Notes under the pieces: generated by a model
The model's input: the letters and a program-made list of their open reading frames with translations, nothing else
What the model was told of the DNA's origin: nothing
The model's database searches: none
Virus record (IMG/VR): IMGVR_UViG_3300010354_000905
Span: 1 to 20,080 of that record
Length of the DNA: 20,080 nt
From: a virus
Strand: one strand, 5' to 3'
In this document: piece by piece, positions 3,808-18,522 of the stretch
How positions within the stretch are numbered: the first letter of the stretch is position 1
How the letters are laid out: each line of letters opens with the position of its first letter
Position numbers and translations under genes: made by a program

Positions 3808-4860
3808 TTATCCGTGTAGCGCAAACTGATCAAGCTTCGTTGTAACCTCTCGCAACCACATTTCTACATTTTTGATTGCACCTGTCATACTATCTTCAAT
3901 GAGCATAGTGTGAAACTTGATCTTTGCGAGTCTGTTTATGTCTTGCTCAAGCAAATCAACAATTTTAAGTTTGCTTGCTGTGTTGATACCACTAACACCA
4001 AGCTGAACAACTTCGTAATAAAGTCTTACGTCACTCTCAGCATCTAGTACTTTTTGGTATATCTTTCCTTTGTTGGTTTTTGCCAACTCTTTAGCGTATG
4101 TGTAGAATTCATCCACACTCATTTTTGTTGTAACTATTTGTGGAAAGTTTTTGATTAATGTTGCTTCACCTAACCCACTTACGCCTGGAATATTGTCACT
4201 ATCATCACCTGTTAAAGCTCTGTAAAGTGCAAAGTTGTATGATGGTATTCCATAGTCTTGTACAACATCCTCAGCATAAAACATTTTCTTTTTTGTGGGA
4301 CTCCACACGTGAACTCGATCATTGACAAGTTGTAAAAAGTCTTTGTCTGACGACATGATGAATACTTGACTACCTTTTTGTTTAAGGTAATCTTCACTCA
4401 TATACGCAATCACATCATCTGCTTCTGCACGATCTATTGTGATGGTGGTAAGTGGTAGTATCTCCAAATACTCCACAAGTCTCATTAGTTGTTGCAGTTG
4501 ATTATCTTGCTTGTCAACTGTCTCAGAGCGATTAAGCCTAATCTTAACTTTACGATGTGCTTTATAGTCTGGATACAATGATCTACGCCTTGCAGCTCCA
4601 TCCTTTCCATCAAACACAACCACAAGTCTGGTTGGATTAATTGCTTTGATTGCGTGTCCAACACTAAGTAAAAAGCCAGAAATTCCACCTACATGTTCAC
4701 CGTTGCCATTCGTAACGGGGCTTGCTGAATATGCACGTATAAACGTGTTCAGCTAAAGACCGTCAACAATCAACACTCTACTATTGCGGTGCTGATCGTC
4801 GACGGCCGGTCCGGTTTGTATTTCCTTCAGATACGATAAATATCTTTGGTAACTGTTCAT
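3808..4860 (-). CDS. 5'-3' exonuclease / T4 RNase H-like flap nuclease, interrupted by in-frame TAG at codon 36
   Basis: Flap/5' nuclease that removes RNA primers during lagging-strand synthesis. The true start is judged to be the ATG at 4858-4860. It follows the uvsX stop by one base, has AAGGAGAG upstream, and gives a family-like N-terminus. The frame reads through VLIVDG (catalytic Asp33), meets TAG at 4753-4755, and continues with LNTFIRAY, VVFDG (84-85), EADD (146-149), SSDKDF (170-175) and the helix-hairpin-helix GDDSDNIPGV (218-227) to a TAA. Everything after the TAG is intact. The family, from memory, reads DGxNTFIR, so the two codons TAG CTG (or CTT TAG) look like a 6-base insertion. 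A restart at the GTG at 4621-4623 would lose the first catalytic motif. It could be a fresh nonsense mutation, suppressor-dependent, or bypassed by the ribosome. Confidence 0.88.
4747..4758 (-). other. In-frame CTT-TAG-CTG site inside exonuclease catalytic motif I
   Basis: The sense codons are GGT CTT TAG CTG AAC, translating G-L-stop-L-N. Two synonymous leucine codons flank the stop. If peptidyl-tRNA-Leu moved from CTT to CTG (six bases), the product would read DGLNTFIR, the normal motif. The sequence is read directly; the hopping mechanism is hypothesis. Confidence 0.5.
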
Positions 4861-6936: not shown

Positions 6937-7311
6937 CTACAGTTCCTTGATTTTAATCATTTTGCAATTAAATTCGCCGTCAGACAAAAGTAAAGTGTCT
7001 TTGTACTGCGGCCAGTCGATTCGATATGTTTTATCAAGTACGCCGTTGTTTAAAACGCGAATTAAACTATTGAGAGCATTAATACTATAATATGTATTGC
7101 TTTCTTTCTTTCTGTTAATTGAGATTGTGTCCTTTAATCTCCTATCAGCTACTACCACATTGTATATACACACCACATTTGTTGGAACCTCTACGTAAAC
7201 ATAACACTTTACGTTAGATATTTCCTCAGGACTATAAACTTTGTATATCTGACCTAAACTGGCAGCTAATTTATCTGTATAGGTGAATGTACAAAGTAAC
7301 TGTGGTCTCAT
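6937..7311 (-). CDS. Hypothetical protein, 124 aa
   Basis: I do not recognise this protein. It is 124 aa with an alternation of short hydrophobic stretches and charged residues that suggests a small mixed alpha/beta domain. It has no signal peptide and no membrane segment. Four cysteines are scattered (LLCTF, VKCYV, VVCIY, FNCKM) without a CxxC pair. It starts with ATG two bases after the stop of the upstream 60-aa gene and ends in TAG, one of the few TAG stops in the window. If that TAG were read through, only about 13 codons would follow before TAA. It may be cotranscribed with the 60-aa protein from the TATTTATA element at 7520. The coding call rests on length, tight packing and protein-like composition. 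Confidence 0.75.
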   Translation of the reverse strand: MRPQLLCTFTYTDKLAASLGQIYKVYSPEEISNVKCYVYVEVPTNVVCIYNVVVADRRLKDTISINRKKESNTYYSINALNSLIRVLNNGVLDKTYRIDWPQYKDTLLLSDGEFNCKMIKIKEL

Positions 7312-7534: not shown

Positions 7535-8842
7535 TTATTGTAAAAGTGCTAGACTCTTGTAGTTATCTCCCCTCTTTATTTTAATAGGAAACTTTTCTAA
7601 GTCAATTGCCTTTGTAACAACCCCCCTTAATAAATAGTCTAATTCTGATAATTCCACATCAAATAAAATACTATCATAGGTGTACAGCACCGGTTTTGTT
7701 TTGTGTGATTGTAACAACTCGTGAATCTTATTGAGTATAATCACATTCATCTCTGTCTCGTACATTTGTATGAAATAGTTAAACAAAGTGTTCATATTCA
7801 TATCACTGTGATTGCTCAGCATCAGTCTACGACCTGATATCGGACTTTCTACATAGCCAAGATCCTCAGCTGTTTTCCACAAGTATCTTGCTATTTCATT
7901 TGTTCTGCTAAAGAAAGGTATATGTAGATATTGTTGTTGAATACCACCATACAATTGTCTAAATGTTCCTTCTTTTGCGCTTTCAATCTGTTGTGGTGTT
8001 GGGTTTGGTGTGTTGTGGTAATATGATGCTAGATGCTCATACACATTATCAGTTCCAAAGTCGTAACCAATCAATTGTGCAATTAATCTTGGATGGTAGG
8101 AATTAAAATCTATTTCAACTAAACAACCCTGCTCGTGACTTGAAACAAAACAACTTCTCGTGTCATCCTCTTTGTTTAATGCTGCAAAGTTGATTCCACC
8201 AAACCTATTACTAGGTCTTCCTGTCGCAGTATAGTAGTTGTATTGTGTGTAAGACTTTTTATCAACTAAACTTAACGTGCTTCCAAACCTATTTGCAAAC
8301 AATTCTCCGTTAACAGCAATCCCATTAGTTTCTATTTTGTGAAACGCTGTTAGTAACTCATCCTGGTAGAATGATAATCCTGGTTGCAACTCCTTAACCC
8401 AACACTCCTGTAATATCTCCTGTGCGATTTGTTCGTGTTTACATAATGATACAAGCTCGTTAATACGATAGCAGTTGGGATAAACTCTTGTGTAATGTTG
8501 TATGATGTTTGGTGTCGTTGTTGTGTATCCCGTGTTTGTATACAGATAATACTGCATCATTACATCAATATACTTTGAGGTGTCATATCCAGCATACTTC
8601 AGTGCTATTGTATTGTAGCAATAAACTATGCTATTATTTAAAAACTCTAAATTGTTGGTATGCCAGATCCCTTCAGGATGGTTATTACTTATTGTGATTG
8701 CATTTCTGGTTTCTAAATCTATCACTACAAAGCCTATAACTGTGTTGACTTTGTTGTGAACGCGTAGATCTCTTAGGATGGGATATAGGAATACCGCTTT
8801 GCTGTTAAAATGTTGCAATTGTTGTATGCTATCCACTATCAT
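7535..8842 (-). CDS. Compact family A DNA polymerase with degenerate exonuclease region
   Basis: Template-directed DNA polymerase of the PolA/T7 type. I start it at the ATG at 8840-8842 (435 aa); a TTG nine codons upstream is possible. Palm and finger motifs are clear: TGRPS (207-211), motif A EIDFNSYHPRL (Asp245), motif B KEGTFRQLYGG (Lys290, Phe294, Tyr298), GRRLML, and motif C YTYDSILF (Asp390). Deviations from E. coli Pol I are His where motif A has the steric-gate Glu, Ile at the Arg four before the motif B Lys, and Ser for the second acidic residue of motif C. Only about 26 residues separate the NGIAVNGEL segment from TGRPS, where about 100 thumb residues are usual. The N-terminal ~140 residues resemble a 3'-5' exonuclease fold, but its acidic residues appear lost. 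The two catalytic polymerase aspartates remain, so it may be active. Confidence 0.85.
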   Translation of the reverse strand: MIVDSIQQLQHFNSKAVFLYPILRDLRVHNKVNTVIGFVVIDLETRNAITISNNHPEGIWHTNNLEFLNNSIVYCYNTIALKYAGYDTSKYIDVMMQYYLYTNTGYTTTTPNIIQHYTRVYPNCYRINELVSLCKHEQIAQEILQECWVKELQPGLSFYQDELLTAFHKIETNGIAVNGELFANRFGSTLSLVDKKSYTQYNYYTATGRPSNRFGGINFAALNKEDDTRSCFVSSHEQGCLVEIDFNSYHPRLIAQLIGYDFGTDNVYEHLASYYHNTPNPTPQQIESAKEGTFRQLYGGIQQQYLHIPFFSRTNEIARYLWKTAEDLGYVESPISGRRLMLSNHSDMNMNTLFNYFIQMYETEMNVIILNKIHELLQSHKTKPVLYTYDSILFDVELSELDYLLRGVVTKAIDLEKFPIKIKRGDNYKSLALLQ

Positions 8843-8872
8843 GGATACAACATACAAAATATATTTCAATTA

Positions 8873-17760: not shown

Positions 17761-18522
17761 CTAAATTAGCTTTTTATAGCCGGCCGGTCGGCGATATCCT
17801 GCTTGATGTAACGCTTTCTTTGCCATTTCAAGATAATTTTCACCTACACCAATATTAACAAGATCAGTTGTTTTAGTTGACGCTTGTACTCTAGGATCAG
17901 ATGGTGTTATCTTGATTGAGGACTTAATACCTGCGTTTTTAAGTATTTGTATAATTTTCTGTTTTGACTTATCGTCTGATTTGGACTTCACGGTCATAAT
18001 CCAATCGTATCGTGTATCCTTATCGTCATCTGTCCCTACCGGTTCACCATCTGCTTCGTATGTTACACCTAGTTGTAATGCTATTTTTTTCCATACACCG
18101 CCACTTTTATCATCTTCAATAGACAAAACCTTCTTTTTTACTGGTTTTAGCGCCTTCATACCATAATCAAATATGGCTTTTAATATTGGCGTAGTTACAC
18201 CTTTGAAATTGTTAGCAGTTGCATTTGCTACTACCAACACCAATTCAGCATCATCAGCATATAAATTGATGGCTAGGTAGTAATGTTTTGGATTACCCCT
18301 GCCCCACATACTAGCGGCATCCGGGTTTCTTTTATCCGTACTCACGTACAAATAATTTGCATCATTTTGAAAATATAATGGATCTGGATACTTGGTTTTG
18401 AATGCACGTTTTATTGTTGGTATAAGTACATCTAAATCATCCAGAAGCCTGAGATCGTCGCCTTCCTTTAAGACTTTCTTAACTTCTTCGCGGATTAGTT
18501 TTCTAAATTCTGTGAGTTTCAT
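17761..18522 (-). CDS. Unknown protein with prohead-targeting-like leader and possible GNAT-like fold, 253 aa
   Basis: The first 21 residues begin MKLTEFRKLIREEVKKVL and run into KEGDD. L-K-E before Gly, and I-R-E earlier, match the L/I-x-E cut preference of T4-type prohead proteases, so the protein may be packaged and trimmed. The middle (about 75-150) goes from strands (YYLAINLYADDAELVLVV) to a helix (TTPILKAIFDYGMKAL), then a strand and a helix ending in LQLGVTYE. That order faintly resembles an acetyltransferase (GNAT) core, but no clear Q/RxxGxG/A acetyl-CoA loop is present. The C-terminal 85 residues are Lys-rich. Stop codons TAG TAA stand in tandem. It shares its promoter-like element with the overlapping 37-codon ORF. 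Function is unknown; the coding call is strong. Confidence 0.8.
   Translation of the reverse strand: MKLTEFRKLIREEVKKVLKEGDDLRLLDDLDVLIPTIKRAFKTKYPDPLYFQNDANYLYVSTDKRNPDAASMWGRGNPKHYYLAINLYADDAELVLVVANATANNFKGVTTPILKAIFDYGMKALKPVKKKVLSIEDDKSGGVWKKIALQLGVTYEADGEPVGTDDDKDTRYDWIMTVKSKSDDKSKQKIIQILKNAGIKSSIKITPSDPRVQASTKTTDLVNIGVGENYLEMAKKALHQAGYRRPAGYKKLI

Follow-up and report, generated by a model that had tools for sequence, protein, structure and literature searches.

The DNA analysed here, a 20,080-nt stretch of the uncultured virus record IMGVR_UViG_3300010354_000905 that we refer to as the window, carries a gene for a FEN/PolI-type 5'-3' exonuclease on its minus strand (3808-4860; 350 codons, with homologues found), flanked by a RecA/UvsX-like gene and a DnaB-like helicase gene. 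When we re-read the coordinates and the frame, they agreed with the original prediction: the gene runs from an ATG at 4858-4860 to a TAA at 3808-3810 (both minus strand), and a TAG at 4753-4755 is the sole stop within this frame. The codons around the TAG read GAC GGT CTT TAG CTG AAC ACG on the minus strand. The first part of the gene, ORF1 (4756-4860, minus strand), comprises 35 codons, ends in ...VLIVDGL and closes with the Leu codon CTT at 4756-4758, referred to below as the take-off codon. After the stop come a second Leu codon, CTG (4750-4752, the putative landing codon), and ORF2 (3808-4749, minus strand), which is in the frame of ORF1 and extends from AAC at 4747-4749 (NTFIR...), the codon at which decoding would resume, to the TAA. 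ORF1 encodes the beta-1 strand and the catalytic Asp of motif I, an N-terminal part common to uninterrupted relatives. In profile searches the post-stop part matched PF02739 (E 4e-32) and, more weakly, PF01367. Six other genes bearing the insert described below also matched PF02739 (E 3.7e-26 or better) and have the motif I Asp. The ATG had been credited with a good Shine-Dalgarno sequence; a Shine-Dalgarno-like GAAGGAGAG is indeed present, but at 13 nt from the ATG its spacing is long.

Motif I had been proposed to be two codons too long at this locus, and comparison with relatives agrees. Further relatives of the window gene (59-75% protein identity where the gene is complete) read DGLNTFIR or DGLNLFIR, and in one case DSLNTFIR, with the two codons absent, and motif I of Taq polymerase (VLLVDGHHLAYR) aligns without gaps to that of one insert-free relative, L003. 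Given the gapless DG-L-N of the insert-free relatives and the Taq alignment, the six-base excess is therefore real, and the gapless motif is consistent with nine bases specifying a single amino acid. The same nine bases, CTT-TAG-CTG, are kept in a second, diverged contig, IMGVR_UViG_3300010370_002718 (L002), which is 99.6% identical to the window; because the two differ by 36 substitutions over 9.4 kb, we regard L002 as a separate assembly of a related strain.

The insert recurs well beyond these two contigs. Scans of IMG/VR identified the same six-base insert at 44 FEN loci, representing ~22 distinct variants and reaching down to ~38% protein identity. The first scan looked for Asp-Gly-(Leu/Phe)-any codon-(Leu/Phe)-Asn-Thr-Phe-Ile; among the 36 contigs with this pattern, 34 are FEN genes, and the free codon was a stop in 34/34. 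When three codons were left free ahead of Asn-Thr-Phe-Ile-Arg (scan 2), two more FEN genes were recovered, with CTT-TGA-CGA and CTT-TGA-GTA. Pooled, these any-codon scans yielded 36 FEN contigs. In each of them the middle codon is a stop preceded by CTN, and neither scan turned up a FEN gene in which sense codons fill both extra positions; the aligned homologues likewise include none in which the two extra residues are encoded by sense codons. A third scan of IMG/VR, in which TRR was required, an NTN codon was allowed before it and other residues were allowed after the Asn, added 12 FEN contigs with seven new variants, all of them CTT-stop. The scan 1 pattern was also run on 11.3 million bacterial and archaeal contigs, where it produced 52 matches by chance; none of these lay in a FEN gene, and the middle codon was never a stop. 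In searches run without selection for the insert, 134 unique insert-free relatives were gathered, and only +0 or +6 bases were seen at the site. The nearest cultured phage relatives (Mel-JY01, the immuto phages and the unannotated record LR756508) are without the insert, and further protein searches led to the same nearest records. Rfam gave no match, and no convincing case of the same element was found in other genes of the collected viral loci.

The codons on either side of the stop follow a simple rule. Among the 22 variants, the take-off codon is CTT in 18, CTG in three and CTC in one, and the stop is TAG in nine, TGA in nine and TAA in four. The landing codon is CTN in 19 (CTG, CTT, CTC and CTA all occur); the exceptions are CGA (L140), GTA (L144) and TTC (L303), each of which can form 2/3 pairs with tRNA-Leu, one being G-U. 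The stop is flanked by codons that one tRNA can read, fully so in 19/22 variants. By comparison, 32% of insert-free relatives encode this Leu with TTA or TTG. Assuming 22 independent variants, the probability of zero TTR codons at take-off is 2e-4, and that of 19 CTN landings under free sense codons is 4e-20, values to be taken as guides only, because the variants are not fully independent by descent and scan 1 itself required YTN on both sides. On a quick maximum-likelihood tree, the minimum number of changes is at least 8 for the insert, 7 for stop identity and 12 for the landing codon, and from these counts the stop as such appears to be kept while its identity drifts. ORF1 is 19-44 codons long across the variants, and the corresponding part is similar in insert-free relatives.

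The original prediction lacks two features: a 48-nt hairpin that directly precedes the take-off codon, and the fact that the whole arrangement is conserved across phages. In the window, the hairpin spans 4759-4806 on the minus strand (GCCGTCGACGATCA..20..TGATTGTTGACGGT, read from 4806 to 4759), its arm 4806-4793 pairing with arm 4772-4759 such that the base abuts the take-off codon; its predicted energy is -28.9 kcal/mol (z about -4.9 to -5.5). At all insert-bearing loci, the 3' arm of the hairpin ends immediately before the take-off codon or is separated from it by a single base. The abutting hairpin is found in 32/32 unique loci, in which the 60 bases upstream have a mean z of -5.6, versus -1.4 for the same upstream fold in the 134 insert-free relatives, most of which lack the hairpin. 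The 80 bases downstream hold no conserved structure (mean z -0.3). The seven variants found after the hairpin rule had been set all obey it (7/7, z -2.6 to -5.7).

The stem also covaries. Its first pair occurs as G-C, A-U, C-G, U-A, G-U and U-G, and its fourth as G-C, A-U or G-U. Pairing across the six basal positions amounts to 98%, with 21 double-change cells, versus 6.8 in shuffles, and a covariation score that was reached by 0/500 shuffles (covariation was also run as a 12-pair version). A search of 1.8 Mb of viral loci for in-frame stops that lie between open frames gave 896; an abutting stem accompanies 46 of these, and 33 of the 46 are FEN sites. Another stem next to an in-frame stop is seen in L223 at ~1288, where a 12-bp stem lies one base upstream of TTT-TAA-TTT, at a gene end before a same-frame gene; it is probably a terminator.

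The Shine-Dalgarno duplex fits behind the ribosomal P site, and from its position there we inferred that a ribosome at the take-off codon would block the last six bases of the 3' arm. With these six bases blocked, the folds of insert carriers averaged -11.2 kcal/mol, versus -23.6 kcal/mol for the complete hairpin, a mean cost of 12.4. The same blocking in insert-free relatives gave -8.1 versus -11.1 kcal/mol, a mean cost of 3.0.

The gene behind the stop is under strong constraint. Across 11 sequences that form one clade and all carry the stop, dS is 1.6 (saturated) and dN/dS 0.093 in the downstream gene, and synonymous divergence is 0.13 in the hairpin versus 0.66 in the downstream gene. A gene behind a true nonsense codon would not stay so constrained for so long. 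In L029, L031, L032, L044, L045, L048, L050, L052 and L054, the ~50 bases before the stop are near-invariant and the downstream synonymous sites are saturated. Directly legible in the aligned loci, then, are a conserved stop with flanking CTN codons and a six-base spacing, a hairpin that abuts them and shows compensatory changes, and a downstream part that has long been under purifying selection while the stop was in place.

This pattern points strongly to a six-base jump of the ribosome across the stop in these nuclease genes of uncultured phages. The earlier proposal of a hop by peptidyl-tRNA-Leu from CTT to CTG over the TAG is supported by the recurrence of CTN-stop-CTN in ~22 variants, the occurrence of three different stops and the abutting 5' hairpin; none of the findings named beforehand as grounds to reject it turned up among the assembled sequences. 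Judging from the sequence comparisons, the FEN-type exonuclease gene would probably be expressed through a programmed in-frame translational bypass, or "stop hop". We also consider it likely that in-frame stop hops driven by a hairpin make up a natural class, old and widespread among the FEN exonuclease genes of phages, which may set or regulate nuclease dose.

We infer the hop itself, the re-pairing of the tRNA and the role of the hairpin as motor from the arrangement of these elements. The ribosome would read ORF1 to ...Val-Asp-Gly-Leu and stall with peptidyl-tRNA-Leu on CUU and the stop in the A site, at which point the upper part of the hairpin, behind the stalled ribosome, would already be paired. 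Once the tRNA released CUU, the basal pairs GCCGUC/GACGGU, located directly 5' of CUU, would zip up and drag the mRNA backwards, thereby moving the ribosome six bases forward; the pairs that a forward move of this size would allow to close are exactly the six most conserved ones. The same tRNA-Leu would then re-pair with CUG and decoding would resume at AAC, such that the nine bases CUU UAG CUG would yield one Leu and motif I would be restored as DGLNTFIR. Among the points that count against the hop, the landing codons are near-matched rather than matched in three variants, and no conserved A-site or downstream structure is seen, unlike in T4 gene 60. The hairpin and stop are otherwise intact in the three variants concerned (L140, L144 and L303), which are natural tests of how strict re-pairing must be. 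A +1 frameshift at CTT T was rejected as a candidate: in the window it meets a stop, TGA, one codon later, and ORF2 shares the frame of ORF1. Origin of the insert by quasi-palindromic copying of CTGAA (giving CTT-CAG-CTG, followed by C to T) was dropped, as no sense-codon form was found.

The main rival of the stop hop is readthrough, in which a near-cognate tRNA would decode the stop, with the 5' hairpin and the leaky context of a stop followed by C as stimulators, to yield an enzyme whose motif I is two residues longer (X-Leu). A downstream part that continues in the same frame fits this reading just as well, the three landing codons that are not CTN agree with it, and the base after the stop is C in 20/22 variants, a context that also favours leaky termination. 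We nevertheless consider readthrough unlikely, since TAG, TGA and TAA are all in use and replace one another among relatives (with no fewer than 7 changes on the tree), CTN is found on both sides of the stop and TTR never is, and the stimulator lies only 5', with no 3' structure found. Readthrough would moreover call for tolerance of the extra residues, and none of the scanned FENs carries them as sense codons. An AlphaFold2 model of the readthrough form is predicted to lose the motif I strand-helix, whereas the insert-free control, at an equally shallow alignment depth, forms both, a comparison that is weak because both models are poor (mean pLDDT 54 and 57).

A short first ORF together with a stop and a hairpin is also seen in leader-peptide systems. 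Termination at the stop, with ORF2 made separately by internal initiation or reinitiation, would leave the nuclease split or truncated and make ORF1 a leader peptide. This seems very improbable given that ORF2 is in frame with exactly six extra bases and that unselected sampling returned +0 or +6 only; in addition, the codon after the stop varies, no conserved start codon was found downstream of the stop among the variants, and the conserved strand and catalytic Asp are encoded by ORF1. More improbable still is removal of the six bases at the RNA level, for example by hairpin-driven forward slippage of RNA polymerase that re-pairs CTN with CTN. Hairpin-stimulated transcriptional slippage sites have a comparable layout, with a hairpin directly upstream of the segment concerned, here nine bases long. 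However, third-base mismatches between take-off and landing codons are common (CTT/CTG, CTC/CTT, CTG/CTC, CTT/CTA), even though the RNA would have to re-pair with template DNA, and tRNA wobble therefore fits better; a need for a stop, and for any of three, would also be meaningless at the RNA level.

Finally, nonsense mutation, assembly error, an amber-suppressor tRNA and TAG reassignment, each of which the single window would permit if taken alone, are ruled out for the TAG in motif I, being already refuted by the recurrence of TAG, TGA and TAA across the 44 loci and opposed by the purifying selection downstream. Assembly error is ruled out by the independent contig with 36 differences and by recurrence elsewhere, and amber suppression and TAG reassignment by the TGA and TAA found at the same site in related phages. 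Other in-frame TAGs and a suppressor tRNA had been named as things to look for: no in-frame TAG besides that of the exonuclease was seen in the window, and no tRNA gene was found there or in six insert-bearing contigs of 41-70 kb. The original prediction had judged global TAG reassignment less likely, in part by counting three other ORFs that end in TAG. The judgement holds and TAG is in use as a terminator, but the gene-sized ORFs ending in it number two, at 6937-7311 and 17761-18522, the latter followed by TAA.

Among known systems, the closest in layout to the proposed stop hop is the 50-nt bypass of T4 gene 60, in which the take-off codon is followed by UAG, the landing codon is matched and a 5' stem-loop has been proposed as a zippering motor (PMC5009743, PMC11194080); the top pairs of this stem-loop are preformed, and its last pairs are proposed to pull the mRNA (PMC5009743). 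The FEN site shares with gene 60 the stop right after the take-off codon, the matched landing codon, the 5' stem-loop and the location in a phage DNA-metabolism gene. Yet the FEN jump would be 6 nt and in frame, with Leu CTN codons for take-off and landing, and the sites are spread over many phage lineages, use any of the three stops and have no conserved take-off stem-loop or downstream structure. Because of the lack of conserved structure downstream, we did not file the FEN site as a gene 60 homologue. Artificial stop hops were obtained in E. coli reporters by Weiss et al. 1987 (as cited in PMC5009743); those are synthetic, whereas the FEN site is natural, conserved and equipped with a dedicated hairpin. 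A 2016 review described in-frame stop hopping as demonstrated with synthetic constructs, with no natural occurrences known, and suspected that some cases of "readthrough" might be hops (PMC5009743). We found no later report of a natural stop hop in the open-access literature, most subscription papers and all preprints being outside this scope.

Other recoding systems share individual elements with the FEN site. In work on RF2, CUU_U before a stop was the most slip-prone site tested (PMC5009743). Like the FEN site, the RF2 (prfB) +1 site has CUU before the stop, C after it and a duplex directly upstream that promotes forward slippage; its duplex, however, is a Shine-Dalgarno pairing, whereas that of the FEN site is an mRNA hairpin and the downstream frame is unchanged. 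The byp elements of Magnusiomyces mitochondria are also small inserts in coding genes that are bypassed by the ribosome, with a landing match of sometimes only 2/3 bases (PMC5009743), but they occupy many context-independent sites in most mitochondrial genes, while the FEN insert is confined to one site in one gene family and has a conserved hairpin. A short bypass has likewise been proposed for a phage gene, the terminase of Streptomyces phage Hau3, where it relies on a UUA codon rather than a stop and where no such hairpin family is described (PMC5009743).

If the stop hop operates as proposed, a reaction known previously only from artificial constructs would take place in many uncultured phages, at a stop among the codons for the active site of a DNA-repair nuclease. 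The FEN family offers many natural variants, with three stops, different landing codons and covarying stems, and the idea that mRNA zippering moves the ribosome is therefore directly testable, with a cassette of ~60-80 bases. At such sites, gene callers can split conserved phage genes in two.

As for the origin of the insert, its scattered occurrence could reflect an old element that was lost many times, or repeated gains. A weaker hairpin abuts the same Leu codon in several insert-free relatives of the window gene (L070, L131, L075, L071, L084 and L068), perhaps a remnant of a lost stop hop. Since some insert-free relatives keep it, the hairpin does not always go together with the stop, and its retention in the first five of these favours loss. 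No homing endonuclease ORF was seen beside the FEN gene in the collected loci, as judged by the small gaps to neighbouring ORFs. The previous gene ends within 300 nt in carriers other than L306, in which the 1079 nt upstream of the landing codon are without an ORF of 80 aa on that strand.

Elsewhere in the window, a gene at 7535-8869 encodes a 444-aa short family A DNA polymerase-like protein with a weak Pfam match, starting with a TTG just past the end of the preceding gene. Within this gene, L002 is one base short relative to window position 8387 (GTTGCAACC to GTTCAACC); the one-base loss, whether an assembly slip or a real frameshift, splits the polymerase frame in L002 and leaves it whole in the window.
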